DNA of 64,000 nucleotides, taken from positions 46,116-110,115 of the forward strand of contig JAIDOW010000071.1 of the NCBI GenBank assembly GCA_029063085.1. Direction: 5' to 3'. This document shows, piece after piece, positions 6,828-32,492 of this stretch (positions are counted from its first letter, which is position 1; every line of letters begins with the position of its first letter). The translations under genes and the position numbers were made by a program. The notes under the pieces are model-generated. The model saw only the letters and a program-made list of their open reading frames with translations, searched no databases and was not told the DNA's origin. The stretch is from Lachnospiraceae bacterium. Lineage in GTDB: Bacteria > Bacillota > Clostridia > Lachnospirales > Lachnospiraceae.

Positions 6828-8231
6828 ATGAAGACAAATAAGACAACTGTTTTTTCCCGCCTGATTGGCGATAAACAATTTTATAAGATGGTACTAGCTG
6901 TCGCCGTGCCCATTATGCTGCAAAATGGAATCACCAATTTTGTAGGACTTCTTGACAATATCATGATCGGCCAGATTGGAACAGAACAGATGTCCGGTGC
7001 TGCCATTGTAAACCAGCTGATCTTTGTGTACAATTTATGCATTTTCGGCGGTGTATCCGGTGCCGGGATCTTTACGGCCCAGTATTTCGGTCAGAAGGAC
7101 ACCGAAGGTGTACGCAATACGTTCCGCTTTAAACTCTGGATGGCACTGGCTCTTACAACAATAACCATTGTGTTATTTTTAACGGCCGGAGAAGCTTTGA
7201 TTCATATGTATCTAAAAGGAGAAGCAAATTCTACCGACGCAGAAGCAACCCTTATGTACGGCAAACATTATCTGTTGATCATGCTTGCAGGGCTGCCTGC
7301 ATTTATGCTTGGACAGGTCTATGCCAGTACCCTCCGGGAATGCGGTGAAACCGTACTTCCAATGAAGGCAGGCATCACTTCCGTCATAGTCAACCTTATA
7401 TTTAATTACCTTTTAATATACGGAAAATTAGGATTTCCTGAACTGGGTGTGCGGGGAGCTGCGATTGCCACCGTGATTTCCCGTTATGTAGAGGTCTTTG
7501 TCATCGTCTTTTGGACACACCGCCATACAGAAAAGAATACGTTTGCAGAAGGACTTTACCGCACCCTGAAGGTTCCCGGTTTTCTTATACAAAAAATTCT
7601 GTTAAAAGGAACTCCCCTTCTTTTAAACGAAACCCTTTGGGCTGCCGGTATGGCAATGCTGACACAATGCTATTCAGTCCGCGGACTGAATGTTGTGGCA
7701 GGGCTTAACATTTCCAACACCATTAACAATGTGTTTAATATTGTATTTATCGCACTGGGGGATTCCGTAGCCATTATCGTAGGACAACTACTTGGTTCCG
7801 GAGATATGAAGAAGGCAAGAGATACTGATAACAAAATGATTGCTTTTTCCGTAGCCTGCTGTAGTGCAGCAGCACTGATCATGCTCATAATGGCTCCTCT
7901 TTTTCCGAGGTTTTATAATACCAATGCAGAAGCAAAAGTCCTGGCAAAGCAGTTCATCATGGTTACTGCTATTTTCATGCCGCAGAATGCTTTTCTGCAC
8001 GCATGTTATTTTACACTGCGCTCCGGCGGTAAGACCATGATAACTTTTCTGTTTGACAGTGTCTTTATCTGGTGTGTCAGTGTAGTGATAGCCTTTACAC
8101 TGAGTCGTTTTACTGTACTTCCGGTTATTGCAATCTATACCCTCGTACAGATCGGGGATATGATAAAATGTCTGGTAGGATTTATTCTGGTAAAAAAGGG
8201 AATCTGGCTGCAAAACATTGTATCACAATAA
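6828..8231 (+). CDS. MATE family efflux transporter
   Basis: VAVPIMLQNGITNFVGLLDNIMIGQIGTEQMSGAAIVNQ, about 12 TM. Confidence 0.93.
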   Translation: MKTNKTTVFSRLIGDKQFYKMVLAVAVPIMLQNGITNFVGLLDNIMIGQIGTEQMSGAAIVNQLIFVYNLCIFGGVSGAGIFTAQYFGQKDTEGVRNTFRFKLWMALALTTITIVLFLTAGEALIHMYLKGEANSTDAEATLMYGKHYLLIMLAGLPAFMLGQVYASTLRECGETVLPMKAGITSVIVNLIFNYLLIYGKLGFPELGVRGAAIATVISRYVEVFVIVFWTHRHTEKNTFAEGLYRTLKVPGFLIQKILLKGTPLLLNETLWAAGMAMLTQCYSVRGLNVVAGLNISNTINNVFNIVFIALGDSVAIIVGQLLGSGDMKKARDTDNKMIAFSVACCSAAALIMLIMAPLFPRFYNTNAEAKVLAKQFIMVTAIFMPQNAFLHACYFTLRSGGKTMITFLFDSVFIWCVSVVIAFTLSRFTVLPVIAIYTLVQIGDMIKCLVGFILVKKGIWLQNIVSQ

Positions 8232-21662: not shown

Positions 21663-21906
21663 AAGTAAACCTCCACTTCTCACTGTCATAACAGACATTA
21701 TAACATAACCCATCTCACTGTTTTTTTATTATTTATGAAAAAATCCTTACAAAAAATCTTTAAAAACTTAAGGAATCTTAAGAATTTTTCTATTGATATT
21801 GAAAAGAAACTATGATAACTTGAGTTTTGTGAAATTTATGTGTAATTATAATTTTAAAAGAGGAACAGCGACAGAAGTCTGCTTTGTTCCATAGATGGAG
21901 GCAGAT

Positions 21907-23442
21907 ATGAATAACGTTTTAGAATATCTTGAGGCAAGTGCGGCGGCCTTTCCTGATAAAATCGCTGCAAGAGATGACAAAATCTCATGTACCTACAAGG
22001 AACTGCTCTCCGATGCAAGGCGAATCGGCACAATGCTTACGACGAAAACAGATATCAGAAAACCGATCGCTGTTTTTATGGATAAGAGTGTTGCCACACT
22101 AAAATACTTTATGGGTATCCTTTATGCCGGATGCTTTTACGTACTGGTAGACCCTTCTTTTCCAACAGCGAGAATCCGACAGATTCTTGATGTATTAGAA
22201 TCCGATATCGTGATAACGGAGCATTCTAATGAGGAAAAGCTTAAAAGTACCGGATACGACAAAGAAATAATATATTTCGAGAAACCATTAAAGGATACAT
22301 CCATACAGGAATCCAACGAACAGCTTATGGCTGTGCGGCAAAGACTGACAGATACGGACCCTGTTTATTGTAATTTCACATCCGGTTCTACCGGCGTTCC
22401 AAAAGGTGTTTTAATATGCCACCGCTCTGTCATCGATTTTATTGAACAGTTTACAAAAACATTTGACATTACCAGTGAGGATATAATCGGCAACCAGGCT
22501 CCATTTGATTTTGATGTATCCGTAAAGGATATATACAGTACACTGAAAACAGGAGCGACTTTAGTTATTATTCCAAGGTCTTATTTTATGTTTCCTAATG
22601 CAGTAGTTGATATGTTAGATGATAATGAAGTGACCACTTTGATATGGGCAGTATCGGCTCTTTGCCTGTTAAACCGTCTCCACGGACTAAAGCATAAGGT
22701 TCCGTCCAATATTAATAAGATTTTATTCAGTGGAGAAATGATGCCAATCAAACAGTTGAATGTATGGCGTTCCTATTATCCTAATGCCATGTTTGTCAAT
22801 CTGTACGGACCGACCGAAATCACCTGCAACTGCACATATTATATACTGGATAAAGACTTTTCAGAGGACGACAGGCTTCCGATGGGACAGGCATTTGCAA
22901 ACGAACGGGTTTTTTTACTGGATGATACTGATAACGAGATTTTGGCAGGACAAATAGAAAACTCCGGTGAGGTATGCGTAGCCGGCACTTGCCTTGCCCT
23001 TGGTTATTATAATAACCCTGACGCATCCAAAAAAGCATTTACCCCTAATCCATTACAATCCAAATGGTCTGAAACCATATACAGGACCGGCGACCTTGCA
23101 TATTACGGTGCTGACGGGCTGCTTTACTTTGCCGGAAGAAAGGATTTTCAGATCAAGCATATGGGACACCGCATTGAACTGGAAGAAATTGAGAGTGTAC
23201 TTGGGAGTGTCAGTACGGTTGAACATGCCTGCTGCTTCTTTGACGAGAAAAAAAGCAAAATAGTAGCTTTCTATGTAGGGACGGCTGATAAAAAGGAAAT
23301 ACTGGATGAGATGAGAAAAAAGGTTCCTGAATACATGCTGCCCAACGTTCTCCGCCCTCTGGAATCGCTGCCTCTTACCAAAAACGGCAAAACAGACAGA
23401 AAACTTCTGAAAGAAATATATGAAAACCAAAAGAAAGGTTGA
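21907..23442 (+). CDS. DltA-like amino acid adenylation enzyme
   Basis: NFTSGSTGVPKGVLI, NLYGPTEITCNCTYY, YRTGDLAYYGADGLLYFAGRKDFQIKHMGHRIELEEIE, PLTKNGKTDRK; stand-alone A-domain, SD GGAGG. Confidence 0.92.
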   Translation: MNNVLEYLEASAAAFPDKIAARDDKISCTYKELLSDARRIGTMLTTKTDIRKPIAVFMDKSVATLKYFMGILYAGCFYVLVDPSFPTARIRQILDVLESDIVITEHSNEEKLKSTGYDKEIIYFEKPLKDTSIQESNEQLMAVRQRLTDTDPVYCNFTSGSTGVPKGVLICHRSVIDFIEQFTKTFDITSEDIIGNQAPFDFDVSVKDIYSTLKTGATLVIIPRSYFMFPNAVVDMLDDNEVTTLIWAVSALCLLNRLHGLKHKVPSNINKILFSGEMMPIKQLNVWRSYYPNAMFVNLYGPTEITCNCTYYILDKDFSEDDRLPMGQAFANERVFLLDDTDNEILAGQIENSGEVCVAGTCLALGYYNNPDASKKAFTPNPLQSKWSETIYRTGDLAYYGADGLLYFAGRKDFQIKHMGHRIELEEIESVLGSVSTVEHACCFFDEKKSKIVAFYVGTADKKEILDEMRKKVPEYMLPNVLRPLESLPLTKNGKTDRKLLKEIYENQKKG

Positions 23443-23455
23443 AAGAGTGGATTAT

Positions 23456-24688
23456 ATGCAGCAGGATATGTTTCGATCAATAGCTTCTGATTATGAAACA
23501 CCCACATATGTGTTTGATATGCGGGCACTGGCACAACGGGTTGATTTTATTAGAAAACTGCTTCCTAAAGAAACCAAGCTTTGCTTTGCCATGAAAGCAA
23601 ATCCATTTATGGCAGGTGTTCTCGCAGATATGGTGGACAGGCTGGAGGTCTGCTCCCCGGGCGAATATGAAATCTGCATCCGGGAACGGATCGATCCTGA
23701 AAAAATTGTAGTATCGGGTGTAAATAAAACCCTGGCATCCATGGAACGAATCCTATCTTATAGCCACGGTGCAGGCATCTATACGATTGAATCAGAGCTC
23801 CACTACCAGATATTAAAGCAGTGTGCCGGTAGAATAAACAAAAGGCTTAAAGTACTGTTACGGCTTTCCAGCGGCAACCAGTTTGGCATGGATGAGCCCA
23901 CATTAGAACGGGTACTTGCATCCATACAGACTGACAATATCGCAGATATAATCGGAATCCATTACTATGCAGGTACACAAAAGAAGATGTCAAAGCTGGA
24001 AAATGAACTACAACAGTTAGAGATTTATGGTGCAAAACTAAAGGAGAAGTATCACATCTCCGATATGGAGCTGGAATACGGTCCCGGACTGATGGTATCC
24101 TATTTTGAAGATGCCAGTCCATCGGAACTTACCGCATCCGATGCAAAAAAACAACTTGAAACCCTTAATAATCTTTTATCCGACATGCATGCTTACGGAA
24201 ATATTTCTATAGAACTGGGAAGATTCCTAACTTCGGACTGCGGATATTATATGACACAAATTATGGATATCAAACATACCGGTAAAGCCGGATTTATCAT
24301 TGTAGATGGCGGAATTCATCAAATTAACTATTTCGGACAGATGATGGGTATGAAAAAACCATATATACAGCTTGTAAAAGCAAACAGCCATGAATCAGAT
24401 ATATCGGAAAATGCCGGAAAATGGACAATATGCGGTTCCCTTTGTACAGTGAATGATGTACTTGTCCGCCAGATAGAACTGGATTCCTTTGAAACAGGAG
24501 ACTTTCTGGTGTTTGAGCGATGCGGTGCTTATGCCGTAACAGAGGGCATGGCATTATTCTTAAGCCGTGAGCTGCCACAGGTACTTTTAATTGACTTGGA
24601 TGGAAATATCCGTATTTTAAGAAAGAAAACGGAAATCAATATATTAAACAGTAAAATGGAGGAAAACGAATATGGAAAAACTAATTGA
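23456..24688 (+). CDS. Fold-type III PLP-dependent decarboxylase (LysA/BtrK-like)
   Basis: KLCFAMKANPF (PLP Lys), VCSPGEYEIC, GIHYYAGTQ, ELGRFLTSDCGYYM, CGSLCTVNDVL, ERCGAYAVTEGMALF. Confidence 0.9.
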   Translation: MQQDMFRSIASDYETPTYVFDMRALAQRVDFIRKLLPKETKLCFAMKANPFMAGVLADMVDRLEVCSPGEYEICIRERIDPEKIVVSGVNKTLASMERILSYSHGAGIYTIESELHYQILKQCAGRINKRLKVLLRLSSGNQFGMDEPTLERVLASIQTDNIADIIGIHYYAGTQKKMSKLENELQQLEIYGAKLKEKYHISDMELEYGPGLMVSYFEDASPSELTASDAKKQLETLNNLLSDMHAYGNISIELGRFLTSDCGYYMTQIMDIKHTGKAGFIIVDGGIHQINYFGQMMGMKKPYIQLVKANSHESDISENAGKWTICGSLCTVNDVLVRQIELDSFETGDFLVFERCGAYAVTEGMALFLSRELPQVLLIDLDGNIRILRKKTEINILNSKMEENEYGKTN

Positions 24689-24902
24689 GATTTTGGAAGA
24701 GATTTTACCGGGAGAGGATGTGGAAAACTGTACTACACTTGTGGATGACCACATTCTGACTTCCTTTGATATCCTATCTCTCGTATCCGAGATTGAGGAT
24801 GCATTTGATGTGGAGGTATCTCCGGCAGAGCTGACACCCGAGAATTTCAATTCTGCCGCATCACTCTGGGAAATGATTGGCAGATTAAAGGAGGAGAATT
24901 AG
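24672..24902 (+). CDS. DltC-like acyl/peptidyl carrier protein
   Basis: 76 aa, helical carrier fold with Ser in HILTSFDILSLVSEIEDAFDVEV. Confidence 0.88.
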   Translation: MEKLIEILEEILPGEDVENCTTLVDDHILTSFDILSLVSEIEDAFDVEVSPAELTPENFNSAASLWEMIGRLKEEN

Positions 24903-24903
24903 A

Positions 24904-26394
24904 TTGGAGTATCATTTACTGACCTACAGTCTGTTGTTCCTGCCTATCGTTGCTATTTTATATCAGTTTACACCTGCCAGACTCCGCTGGATTGTTCTGC
25001 TTGCTGCTGACTATCTCTTTTTCTGGATGGTCAGCAAATGGCTGATCATTTTCCTGTTCATCGCAACACTTACCACATATGGAACAGGCAGGATTCTAAC
25101 TTACGTAACGGAACACTCCACCGTAAAAGGAAAACAACTGACCAAAAAGAAACGATGTGTTCTTGCACTGGGAATTGCAATCACTCTGGGTATGTTAATT
25201 GTATTCAAATATTTAAAAATATTTGGACTTTCCCTAATTGCACCCATTGGTATATCCTATTACACCCTTCAGACAATATCTTATATGACTGATGTATATC
25301 GCGGAACCATAAAAGCAGACACCAACTTCGCAAAAGTTGCTCTCTACCTAAGCTTCTTTCCACAGATCATGGAAGGTCCCATCAGCAGATATTCGCAAAC
25401 AGCAGATGCTCTCTTTGCAGGCAGAAGCATTGAATACTGCAATCTGACATATGGGTATCAGCGCATTCTATGGGGACTCTTTAAAAAAATGATGGTTGCA
25501 GACCGACTTGCACCTGTTATTTTTAAAATATTTGGAGACTATGAAAAATACGACGGTGCAGCCGTAGCTGTAGCCGTTATCTGCTATACGATTCAGCTCT
25601 ATACGGAATTTTCGGGCGGCATGGACATCATTTTAGGAAGCGGCGAAATATTTGGCATAACTCTTCCTGAAAATTTCCGCCAGCCGTTTTTTGCCAGCAG
25701 TGCTTCTGACTTCTGGCGCAGATGGCATATTACACTTGGAACATGGTTAAAAGATTATATCTTTTACCCTCTATCACTGGCAAAGCCTGTAAAGAATTTT
25801 GCAAAGAAAGTCAAAGCTTCCTGTGGCATCCGTGTCAGCAGGTTTGTGGCACCCACCATTGCCCTGTTCTTTGTATGGCTTTCAAACGGTATCTGGCATG
25901 GTGCAGGATGGACATATTTATTTTACGGTATGTACTATTTTGTACTGATATTTATAGAAAACATAACGGAAGAACCTATCGGAAAACTCATTACAAAATG
26001 GAATATCCATACAGAGAAACTGGGATGGCGGTTACTCACTGCTTTCAGACTCTTTATCATCATCAATGTGGGCGAGCTGTTTTTCCGTGCTCCAAGTGTT
26101 ACACAGGGCTTCGGCATGCTTGGAAGAATACTGACAAACTTCCACATTTCCATACTGAATGCAATGGATTTTGGACTAGATAACTATGATATCCTGCTTT
26201 CCATGGCTGGAATCTTCATTGTTCTCATGGTAGATATTATCCATGAAAAAGGGATTTCTATCCGTGATAAAATTGCTTCCTGCAGGCTGCCGGTACGCTG
26301 GGGATTCTGGTATGCAGTGATTTTCTTTATTATCATATTTGGGGCTTATGGTGCCGGTTATACCGTTGTAGATATGATTTATGCAGCTTATTAG
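24904..26394 (+). CDS. MBOAT family O-acyltransferase (DltB-like)
   Basis: DFWRRWHITLGTWLKDYIFYPL and SNGIWHGAGWTYLFYGMYY (MBOAT His); TTG start. Confidence 0.93.
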   Translation: MEYHLLTYSLLFLPIVAILYQFTPARLRWIVLLAADYLFFWMVSKWLIIFLFIATLTTYGTGRILTYVTEHSTVKGKQLTKKKRCVLALGIAITLGMLIVFKYLKIFGLSLIAPIGISYYTLQTISYMTDVYRGTIKADTNFAKVALYLSFFPQIMEGPISRYSQTADALFAGRSIEYCNLTYGYQRILWGLFKKMMVADRLAPVIFKIFGDYEKYDGAAVAVAVICYTIQLYTEFSGGMDIILGSGEIFGITLPENFRQPFFASSASDFWRRWHITLGTWLKDYIFYPLSLAKPVKNFAKKVKASCGIRVSRFVAPTIALFFVWLSNGIWHGAGWTYLFYGMYYFVLIFIENITEEPIGKLITKWNIHTEKLGWRLLTAFRLFIIINVGELFFRAPSVTQGFGMLGRILTNFHISILNAMDFGLDNYDILLSMAGIFIVLMVDIIHEKGISIRDKIASCRLPVRWGFWYAVIFFIIIFGAYGAGYTVVDMIYAAY

Positions 26395-26426
26395 GAGCGT
26401 TAAAAGGGATATGGAGGAACAGGAAA

Positions 26427-27341
26427 TTGAAGTTAAATAAAAATATATTAAAATGTGCCGGATTTTTGCTTGGTCTTATTATACTGCTTATCGCCACATC
26501 ATACTTTTTCCGCCGCAAGGACGGGCTTTACGTATATGATTCCCTTTCTGTCAGTGTAAAATCCGCAGATATCAAAGCGGAACCTGCTGACAGCTTAGAC
26601 GTCCTTTTTTTCGGTGACAGCGAAAGTTATGCAGCTTTTTATCCCAATTATCTGTATTCAAAATTTGGATACACTTCCTTTGTCTGTGGTACAGCTGCCC
26701 AAAAAATCTGCGATACTTATGCAATCTTAAAAAATGCTTTTGAAACCCAGTCTCCAAAGATCATTGTCCTGGAAACAAACTGTCTTTTCCGGAAACTGAA
26801 ACCAAAAGAGAAAAAACCAGATCTTGCCATGGACTATCTGACAGATACCTTTCCTGCATTTGCAAATCACACAATGTGGAAAGGATGGGCAAGAAAGCTT
26901 CTGCCCAAAAGCAGGGACGTGAAGCGCCGAAAAGAAAAAGGATTTATCGTAAGAGAAAATGTAATTCCCTATAAAGGCGGCAATTATATGCGTAAGACAA
27001 AGAAAAAGTGCAAGGTTCCAAAGGAAATAACCGCTTATCTGGAAAAAATCATTGACCTTTGTGAGGAAAACAATGCCACTCTTCTTTTAGTAAGCACACC
27101 ATCCTCAAAGAACTGGAATTATAAGAAACACAATGGTACAAAGCTTTGTGCAGATACCTATAATATTACCTATATCGATCTCAATCTGGATAAGAGCATT
27201 AACATCGACTGGTCATCTGACACCAAAGACGGCGGCGACCATTTGAATCTTGCCGGAGCCAAAAAAGTAACGAAATTCATGGGCAAATATTTCCGTGAAA
27301 ACTTTGACCTGACAGACAGACGGGATAAAAAAGAAAAGTAA
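26427..27341 (+). CDS. DltD-like/SGNH-type secreted or membrane-anchored protein
   Basis: N-terminal TM, LFFGDSESYAAF block and C-terminal DGGDHLNLAGAKKV; TTG start; last gene of operon. Confidence 0.8.
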   Translation: MKLNKNILKCAGFLLGLIILLIATSYFFRRKDGLYVYDSLSVSVKSADIKAEPADSLDVLFFGDSESYAAFYPNYLYSKFGYTSFVCGTAAQKICDTYAILKNAFETQSPKIIVLETNCLFRKLKPKEKKPDLAMDYLTDTFPAFANHTMWKGWARKLLPKSRDVKRRKEKGFIVRENVIPYKGGNYMRKTKKKCKVPKEITAYLEKIIDLCEENNATLLLVSTPSSKNWNYKKHNGTKLCADTYNITYIDLNLDKSINIDWSSDTKDGGDHLNLAGAKKVTKFMGKYFRENFDLTDRRDKKEK

Positions 27342-27428: not shown

Positions 27429-28649
27429 TTAAACAAGCAAAGGTTTCATCTTATCCTCAAAAAATTCTGCAACATCATCCTTGGGACGAATCGTATAATG
27501 TTGAAAATGAAATGCTGCTTCTAATTCATTTCTTTTTTCTGTATCTATATCATACTGTTTCATATGACCAGGGTCGTCTACCTCGATAAATGCAGAACGC
27601 ATAGGAACATAAGAATCTATTATTAAAAAATCTGCTCTGTATTTATGTCTGATTTCCAATCCTCTATAACGATATTGCGGCAATAATAATGGTATTGCCT
27701 CGTATTCTAAAGGTTTATCTTTCAGACTATCTGTAAACTCTAAAAATTTTTCTACAAATAGTCGTTCACTGTATGTTAGCTCACTGTCAAAATAAGAATA
27801 AAATTCTTTCACATCCGTAACATGAATCAAGCGTTCTCTGGGATTCAAATTACCATCATGAATCACAAAACCTGTCTTCAGCAAATGTCCAATAGAAAAT
27901 GGTTTAAATGATACTCTTCGGTTCAGCGCACTATAATTCCCCCATGTCTCTTCCTCTCCTAAGCGTTCTGCCCTCAATCTGGGAGAAATATAGAGTGACT
28001 TTACATTTTCTATTCCAAAGCTGCTGCCATTTTGCCCCATATGCACTTCTCCAATATTTGTTTTTGGGGTAATTCTCGCTTTATACTGCCAATAAAAATT
28101 CCTGCTTAAGAAATTCCATACATATTTCTCCAAAGCACTGCCATTAAAAAAAAGTGCCGCCTTATCATTATTATGTCTAATCTGATTGATACATTCCTTA
28201 AAGCTGTCCCGTCCCTCATCAAACGCAGAAAAGGCACGATGTTCTAGATCTACATTTCCCAATACATGTACACTAATCATCCCATTAAAACTGCTTTTAA
28301 ACTCCGTATCTTTATCGAAGATTTGAGCAAATTCCTTTGCAGCCTCCGCTTCACATTCTTTCATTTCTCTTTCTGCTTTTCGTGCTTTTCCCAAACATAA
28401 AGAAAATGTATCATCTTTTACACCCGTTATGACAATCACATTATCCCCTCTTAATTCACACAAAAATTCGACTTCTGAAACATCTATGTACTGGTATAAT
28501 ATTTTTTTAACATTCTTATCTTTTACAGGATATGCGTTATATACTTTTTGTTCTGTAACCAGTTTACCAACATCAAAAACTGTTTTACAAACTGGAGTAT
28601 CAACACATAACATTCCTCTTATAATATTTGCTTCTTCATTCAATAACAT
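27429..28649 (-). CDS. Hypothetical protein with C-terminal DUF559/Vsr-like PD-(D/E)XK nuclease motif
   Basis: C-terminal YRADFLIIDSYVPMRSAFIEVDDPGHMKQYDIDTEKRNELEAAFHFQHYTIRP. Confidence 0.6.
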   Translation of the reverse strand: MLLNEEANIIRGMLCVDTPVCKTVFDVGKLVTEQKVYNAYPVKDKNVKKILYQYIDVSEVEFLCELRGDNVIVITGVKDDTFSLCLGKARKAEREMKECEAEAAKEFAQIFDKDTEFKSSFNGMISVHVLGNVDLEHRAFSAFDEGRDSFKECINQIRHNNDKAALFFNGSALEKYVWNFLSRNFYWQYKARITPKTNIGEVHMGQNGSSFGIENVKSLYISPRLRAERLGEEETWGNYSALNRRVSFKPFSIGHLLKTGFVIHDGNLNPRERLIHVTDVKEFYSYFDSELTYSERLFVEKFLEFTDSLKDKPLEYEAIPLLLPQYRYRGLEIRHKYRADFLIIDSYVPMRSAFIEVDDPGHMKQYDIDTEKRNELEAAFHFQHYTIRPKDDVAEFFEDKMKPLLV

Positions 28650-28703
28650 ATTGTTTTCGCCTTCATATCATACTTACTATCTATATCAACATAATATAGC
28701 AGT

Positions 28704-29729
28704 TCACTCTTCTTCACTTAACATCCAGATTTGTTTAAGCGGTATCTCTGCCCTAATCGCCGGACTCAGGTTTTCATAGTTTTCAAACAGTTCCCTGATT
28801 ACATCATTGGAATCCCACAAGCGGATCCTGAAAAACTGTTTTGCTTCTTCCCTTGCCACACTATCCTTGAAGCCACTCCATGATACCAGCAGACCATACT
28901 CCGCATTTACGTTATTCATGACACCTCCAAGCTGGTCTAATGTGGGGCGGTCTATCGGTGCATCCTGTGATTTTACCTGAACACAAATTTTAGGCGAACC
29001 AAAACCCATCTCTCCTCCGGCTGCCAGCAAGTCTTTTCCACCGTCTGCCCCCGGCTTGCTATGATATACTGTAAAACCTTTTGCCATTAATATTTCTTCA
29101 ATCAGATCTTCCATCTTATATCCCTGAAACTTCTGAATAATATACTTTGCGATGGAATCATAGATTGCCTCCTCCAAATCCGTCTGGGAATCGGAATCTG
29201 TATCATCTGCATCTCCAAATGAGACCACATTTCTTGCCGGAACCTTCCAGTTATTTTCCGACATTGCACGAATCCGCCTTTCAGCATCATTTCTGGTAAT
29301 CTTACAAACCGTCATAAATGCTCCAAAAGAATATAAAATATCCTGGTCAAAATTATTTCTCGGAATATCCTTTGCAAACCAGTCTACTGTTCTGTAATGA
29401 TAGTACGGACTGCCGTTCTCCTCTGCATACTGATATTCTCCCATTATCTTCCCAATATGTATCGTATTGGTACGCTTGCTAGGCAGAACAACCCAGTCCC
29501 CAACTTCCACCCGATGAGCAATCGGATAAATCTGGGACGCCCAGTTCTTTAAGGTATTCATCTTTTCCGAAGGATATACCTCCTGTAATTTTTGCAAAAG
29601 CCTCTCCCTGTTTTTATATTGGTTCAAATCAATATTCAGATGGTTCCATGTAAGATAAATCCTGCCATCTGCCAAAAACTTTTCTTCAAACTGTCCTCTT
29701 TTTCCTGCTCTGAATAACCAGATTCCCAT
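28704..29729 (-). CDS. Mrr-like restriction endonuclease
   Basis: MEDLIEEILMAKGFTVYHSKPGADGGKDLLAAGG...ICVQVKSQDAPIDRPTLDQLGGVM (G-D-QxK Mrr core); strong SD for start 29729. Confidence 0.88.
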   Translation of the reverse strand: MGIWLFRAGKRGQFEEKFLADGRIYLTWNHLNIDLNQYKNRERLLQKLQEVYPSEKMNTLKNWASQIYPIAHRVEVGDWVVLPSKRTNTIHIGKIMGEYQYAEENGSPYYHYRTVDWFAKDIPRNNFDQDILYSFGAFMTVCKITRNDAERRIRAMSENNWKVPARNVVSFGDADDTDSDSQTDLEEAIYDSIAKYIIQKFQGYKMEDLIEEILMAKGFTVYHSKPGADGGKDLLAAGGEMGFGSPKICVQVKSQDAPIDRPTLDQLGGVMNNVNAEYGLLVSWSGFKDSVAREEAKQFFRIRLWDSNDVIRELFENYENLSPAIRAEIPLKQIWMLSEEE

Positions 29730-29994
29730 TGGTATCTCCTCCTTTTTATCAATTGCTCTGCTTAGGTAATTGGGAACGCTCAATTTTCCCTGCTAATAAC
29801 TGTATCTGACATATAATCAAAACATTTATATCCCTGCATCTCCTCTTAACTACTTTGTTTTTAGACGTTTACAAACGCCACAAGCCGCATAAATACGGCA
29901 TGTTTTTGTTGCAAATTAAAATATCTCCTCACGGTTTATGGTATAATAGAATTACTATAAACTAACTACCAATCCCCGAAAGGAGACATTTATA

Positions 29995-30269
29995 TGATAC
30001 CACATAAACAATTAAACTTGGCAGATTTTTTTGAAGATTGTCAAAATATTTTTGAAGAAGACAAACCACAGTTCCTTTCTTTGCTTGAGAAACACATTGA
30101 TCTCTACAATTACATTCCTCTAAGGAAATCATAAAAGACGGATTGTACTGGTTTCCCCGCCTTATGCGTTGGCAGACCTTAAAAGGTGAAGTTTCCCCTG
30201 TGTTTGAAGATAACAGGATTGAGGGCTACTATTACCGTCTGAAATCCTTTATGGATATCCAAAAGAAAT
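29995..30269 (+). pseudogene. Transposase N-terminal remnant and adjoining ORF fragment
   Basis: MIPHKQLNLADFFEDCQNIFEEDKPQFLSLLEKHIDLYNYIPL then frame break; followed by IIKDGLYWFPRLMRWQTLKGEVSPVFEDNRIEGYYYRLKSFMDIQKK*. Confidence 0.6.
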
Positions 30270-31001: not shown

Positions 31002-31220
31002 GTGATTGATTATTCCCCATTTTGGGAAACTTTAGAAAAATCAGTTGAAAACTGGTATACTCTGACGAAAAAGCATCGTATGTCAGACAGTACGCTCAAC
31101 CGTTTGAAACATAACAAAGATGTAACCACTAAAACGCTGAACGATTTATGCCGAATATTAGGCTGCGACATAAAGGATATTGTCCGATATATTCCCTCTG
31201 ACAAAGACCAAAAATTATAA
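31002..31220 (+). CDS. Small XRE/Cro-like HTH protein, paralog 1
   Basis: MSDSTLNRLKHNKDVTTKTLNDLCRILGCDIKDIVRYIPS; GTG start with GGGGG SD. Confidence 0.8.
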   Translation: MIDYSPFWETLEKSVENWYTLTKKHRMSDSTLNRLKHNKDVTTKTLNDLCRILGCDIKDIVRYIPSDKDQKL

Positions 31221-31440: not shown

Positions 31441-31659
31441 GTGATTGACTATTTTCCGTTTTGGGAAACTTTGGAAAAATCAACTGAAAATTGGTACACT
31501 TTGACAAACAAACATCATTTATCACATAGCACACTCCACCGTTTGAAGCACAACAAAGATGTATCAACTAAAACGTTGAATGACTTATGCAGAATTTTAG
31601 ACTGTGACATAAAAGATATTGTCCGATATATTCCTTCTGACATAGACCAAAAGTTATAA
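31441..31659 (+). CDS. Small XRE/Cro-like HTH protein, paralog 2
   Basis: LSHSTLHRLKHNKDVSTKTLNDLCRILDCDIKDIVRYIPS; near-identical to paralog 1. Confidence 0.8.
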   Translation: MIDYFPFWETLEKSTENWYTLTNKHHLSHSTLHRLKHNKDVSTKTLNDLCRILDCDIKDIVRYIPSDIDQKL

Positions 31660-32300: not shown

Positions 32301-32492
32301 CTGCATGTAAGTTGGCTCCATCTTCGGCTAATAAAACCAGTTCATCATCAAAATATAATCAGCTACATAATCTTGAATACCATTTGCCCCATAATAAGGA
32401 TATTTTCCTTCTTTTCCATTAAATGCAGTTATCGGAATACGCTTAGAGTCCAATATTTCACAGCATTCTTCCAGCAACATTTTTCCCTACAA
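32301..32492 (-). pseudogene. Type I restriction specificity subunit (HsdS) fragment, frameshifted
   Basis: Minus-strand reading CCEILDSKRIPITAFNGKEGKYPYYGANGIQDYVADYI [frameshift] DDELVLLAEDGANLHA, typical HsdS target-recognition domain start. Confidence 0.75.

Follow-up and report, generated by a model that had tools for sequence, protein, structure and literature searches.

Two nuclease-like genes, side by side on one strand of a Lachnospiraceae contig, raise the question of whether they form a joint anti-phage system or are neighbours by accident. The window analysed here is a stretch of 64,000 nucleotides, in which both genes are intact open reading frames on the same strand with a gap of 54 nt, as the original prediction had placed them (Table 1). 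The translation of gene 1 starts at an ATG at 29729, with a ribosome site (AAGGAGGAG) upstream. Our preferred answer, and in our judgement a reasonably probable one, is that two defence-type nucleases were acquired separately and lie adjacent and co-oriented by chance: a type IV-like Mrr orphan and a stand-alone PD-(D/E)XK protein.

Table 1. Coordinates of the two genes, their domains and the hsdS remnant within the window.
Feature	Position	Strand	Details
Mrr-type restriction endonuclease gene (gene 1)	28704..29729	minus	341 aa; Pfam Mrr_cat and PADLOC PDC-S02
N-terminal domain of Mrr protein	29265..29729	minus	residues 1-155; common to McrB-like AAA_5 ATPase beside McrC
Mrr_cat nuclease domain	28794..29138	minus	residues 198-312; GADGGKD...QVK intact
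Companion gene (gene 2)	27429..28649	minus	406 aa; divergent member of an uncatalogued ~360-aa family
N-terminal extension of companion	28398..28649	minus	residues ~1-84; most family members lack it (alignment A2)
C-terminal PD-(D/E)XK-like nuclease domain	27429..27773	minus	residues ~293-406; fold order predicted, matches weak
Frameshifted hsdS remnant	32349..32474	minus	tblastn E 7e-8, 48% identity to HsdS of L087

The Mrr core proposed for gene 1 was borne out by Pfam, in which Mrr_cat (PF04471) matched with an E-value of 1.3e-22 and 80.5 bits, against a cut-off of 21. Residues D229, Q251 and K253 are invariant in alignment A3, and the GxDxGxD...QVK pattern is kept in homologues of 46-76% identity, the nearest being 76% identical. 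The PADLOC model PDLC04815, one of those for the single-gene phage defence candidate PDC-S02, matched the protein with an E-value of 4.7e-148 over its full length (residues 1-340 of the 341, paired with positions 1-344 of the model's 346), with no profile-level difference. Gene 1 is already on the list of candidate anti-phage genes under this name; experimental validation of the PDC-S02 candidate was not found in the literature searched. PDB sequence searches with the Mrr protein and its profile returned nothing significant.

The original prediction had also described the N-terminus of gene 1 as unlike that of classical Mrr and possibly EVE/PUA-like. Pfam gave no match for this domain and an McrB-like protein also carries it, which upholds the first part; the EVE/PUA identity is unproven, and the EVE profile (PF01878) found no match in the Mrr protein (E up to 10) or anywhere in the genome. 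Residues 19-153 align with the N-terminal part of a protein encoded on a Rhodococcus plasmid (L107:3953-6127; blastp E 4e-19, and 1.2e-24 by hmmsearch with a profile of the domain). That protein contains AAA_5, and the next gene encodes McrC (McrBC, PF10117). The best evidence on the role of the domain is this occurrence on an McrB-like AAA+ ATPase beside McrC, from which we infer that it is probably a reader of modified DNA of the McrB type. Domain sharing with the McrB-like protein likewise suggests that gene 1 encodes a type IV-like (modification-dependent) restriction enzyme. On the Rhodococcus plasmid (L107 3953-7286), an McrB-like ATPase with the PDC-S02 reader domain is followed by McrC, apparently as an McrBC variant that has this reader.

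The neighbourhoods of gene 1 homologues point to a possible origin. Type I restriction-modification genes adjoin the Mrr homologue in 8 of 16 inspected loci (L068, L075, L077, L078, L079, L081, L087 and L088), as called by Pfam HSDR_N in five of the eight and by record annotation in the other three. Such genes are not visible in the remaining eight, with several loci lying on short contigs or at contig edges; L073 and L074 look like one locus in two related genomes. In the genome studied here, HSDR_N and Methylase_S gave no matches, and the one N6_Mtase match lies on another contig. In place of a complete type I system (HsdR, HsdM and HsdS), the window holds just an hsdS fragment, 2.6 kb from gene 1. 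Of the neighbouring remnants that had been predicted, this decayed hsdS piece is real; its Pfam Methylase_S value (0.0094) is below the cut-off, and its match in L087 comes from a viral-collection contig on which the Mrr homologue adjoins a type I operon. The transposase fragment fared less well: the open stretch MIPHKQLNLADFFEDCQNIFEEDKPQFLSLLEKHIDLYNYIP (~29990-30140, plus strand) has what we take to be the look of an IS1182-type transposase N-terminus, and Pfam returned nothing for it, leaving that identity unconfirmed. Given the type I neighbours in half of the inspected loci, the lack of HSDR_N matches here and the broken hsdS piece nearby, gene 1 probably once belonged to a type I restriction cassette and was left as an orphan. 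A different setting was seen in L070 (5118-11034), where a GmrSD/DUF262-like gene lies on one side of the Mrr homologue and a helicase carrying DUF2726 at its C-terminus on the other, possibly another defence cassette.

Two further features flank the pair. Two near-identical tandem genes for 72-aa Cro/C1-type HTH proteins (31002-31220 and 31441-31659, plus strand) apparently reflect a recent duplication, and the first matches HTH_26 (E 5.3e-11). The five genes at 21895-27341 (plus strand) resemble a dlt-type operon, presumably with an AMP ligase, a carrier protein, an MBOAT protein and a secreted DltD-like protein; the added fifth is a PLP-dependent decarboxylase/racemase-like gene (Orn_DAP_Arg_deC). 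The flanking AIM24 gene, followed in four same-genus genomes, left the insertion site undefined, with no other window gene nearby there.

The companion belongs to a widespread family that is unnamed in the libraries searched, as no family exceeded its cut-off in Pfam, PADLOC-DB 2.0.0 or NCBIfam. PDB sequence searches with the protein and its profile found nothing significant. A search with an alignment of five sequences recovered 47 genome loci at 25-34% identity, spread over about ten phyla and strikingly uniform in length (~360 aa), and distant homologues (27-28% identity) occur on plasmids. Within this family the window companion is an outlier. Its end branch in the tree is 5.8 (median 0.24), it has ~85 extra N-terminal residues and a shorter C-terminus that lacks the usual tail, and, of 55 positions with at least 90% conservation among the other members, it has the identical residue at only 30. 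No close relatives appeared in single-sequence pattern scans of genome and viral contigs, and no homologue was found in viral contigs by a profile-guided scan or in phage records. Among 397 genomes of the same bacterial family, three have companion homologues, one of them broken. The broken gene of a same-genus genome (G009, L009 ~7557-8117) is split over two frames, and its surroundings include conjugation-type, GmrSD-like and methyltransferase-like genes.

Among the 135 neighbours within two genes of family members, we found GajA, Old, pAgo, HerA and Cap4, as well as GmrSD, N6_Mtase, SLATT, DUF3800 proteins and several resolvases; these matches are a presence list and not a measure of enrichment. 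No single partner gene recurred frequently across the companion loci. Overall, the companion looks like a gene that stands alone within defence and mobile islands.

The original prediction had likened the companion's C-terminus to DUF559/Vsr nucleases. The sequence cited for this (RADF...FIEVDDPGH) is present, and the likeness holds as far as a probable PD-(D/E)XK domain; DUF559 proper failed at the sequence level, with no Pfam match (PF04480) and weak hhalign scores against a set of six DUF559 sequences (E 0.003-0.011, probability 4-11%). AlphaFold2 gave a confident model for a canonical family member (pLDDT 89.4) and a moderate one for the window companion (71.9), in which residues 1-80 are of low confidence (27-56). 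In both models the chain finishes with a helix, three strands, a helix, a strand and a helix, which gives the alpha-beta-beta-beta-alpha-beta order. The window companion gave no meaningful match in a fold search of the PDB, and the canonical member was therefore folded instead; its PDB matches were not significant (best E 0.43), with Can2, TnsA and MunI in the list. Viral fold matches reached Foldseek probabilities of up to 0.93 with E-values of about 0.1 to 2. Names are missing from many of the top viral rows; where given, they are mostly those of nucleases, of head-completion, DUF2726, VRR-NUC, mismatch, restriction and TnsA types. These predictions suggest that the companion probably ends in a PD-(D/E)XK nuclease domain.

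The model of the window companion places D340 on the second strand, with E356 where the third one ends. D340 is invariant in 46 of 46 aligned sequences (A2), the window protein keeps the H335xxR338 motif, and the glutamate of FEL is more than 90% conserved in the rest of the family. E356 stands one residue out of register with this family glutamate in A2; a one-residue gap would align them, which is our own reading and not the result of a tool. We propose E295, D340 and E356, with D358, as the putative catalytic residues. A nuclease fold need not cut, and the companion might instead use an inactive one for binding, for example as a sensor or regulator. In place of the usual E-x-K or E-x-D, most family members carry E-x-S, and a central region (WIGQxNxxYGLLIxPR, WENDxSEIR or WENDKSEIR, and YWTIGH) is about as conserved in A2 as the nuclease region, both of which would suit a binding role. 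However, the conservation of D340 and of the FEL glutamate is what catalysis would require, and we regard a purely binding companion as very unlikely.

Decay could also account for parts of the locus, with the Mrr gene a roleless remnant of a disintegrating type I cassette and the companion on its way to being lost as well. The frameshifted hsdS piece and the missing HSDR_N would fit such erosion, as would the companion's departures from conserved positions, its absent tail and the broken homologue in a same-genus genome. Both frames are fully open, however; the Mrr protein has kept its catalytic and invariant positions, along with 76% identity to its nearest homologue, and the companion retains D340, H335xxR338 and, if the one-residue shift is allowed, E356. 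We consider this explanation unlikely.

We return to whether the two genes belong together. No terminator-like site was found between them on the coding strand, and they would be transcribed together across the short gap. This arrangement and the nuclease-like character of both products speak for a joint anti-phage system of two genes, whose Mrr protein would read modified DNA and whose companion would be its partner nuclease or regulator. The distribution of the genes argues against it. Within five predicted genes of the companion, a homologue of the window Mrr (blastp E <1e-6) was found at 0 of 52 loci, some with truncated flanks, and none of the inspected Mrr homologues (46-76% identity) has a companion beside it. 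In a sample of 291 genomes of the same class, Mrr is present in ten and the companion in one, and the sole overlap is the genome studied here. This comparison uses distant companion homologues, as no close relative of the window companion's subfamily was found. The original prediction of a two-gene module was to be given up if the genes did not co-occur elsewhere, and the co-occurrence survey found them together in no independent genome; we accordingly rejected the module, and give a functional pair little credence. Since the companion loci, the inspected Mrr loci and the other same-class genomes sampled all lack the combination, the adjacency is best taken as local.

Under the preferred reading, of two independent nucleases, gene 1 would be an accessory nuclease that came with a type I restriction cassette and has since been orphaned. 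Its McrB-type reader would recognise a modified base or another non-self feature in incoming DNA, which the Mrr domain would then cut. In the companion, the helical N-terminal and central region would sense or bind a target, and the C-terminal domain would cleave nucleic acid; either protein may thereby restrict phages. More tentatively, and as a possibility that we would not yet lean on, the companion may represent a new family of stand-alone anti-phage effector nucleases, found in about ten phyla and missing from PADLOC-DB 2.0.0, whose conserved central sensing region would gate a C-terminal PD-(D/E)XK cutter. Should the companion prove to be a defence nuclease, the loci that carry it are being missed at present. 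For PDC-S02, the Mrr reader domain can now be linked to McrB-type readers and the homologues to type I cassettes, a starting point for experiments.

The companion resembles PD-(D/E)XK proteins of the DUF559, Vsr and TnsA types in its predicted C-terminal fold order, the window protein also has an ExD...H signature, and its weak viral fold matches include DUF2726, DUF559, VSR, TnsA-N and VRR-NUC. It differs from them in lacking a Pfam match, in belonging to a family that mostly has ELS rather than ExD, and in its own long, highly conserved N-terminal and central region with no known relative. Gene 1 shares the Mrr_cat nuclease and the D...QxK motif with the type IV enzyme Mrr of E. coli, whereas the N-terminus of EcoKMrr is a winged helix (PMC12707154) and that of gene 1 is the one shared with an McrB-like protein. 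With McrBC, gene 1 has in common a homologous reader-like N-terminal domain, borne there by an McrB-like AAA_5 ATPase beside McrC; in contrast, the gene 1 protein has neither the AAA+ motor nor McrC, and its nuclease is fused directly.
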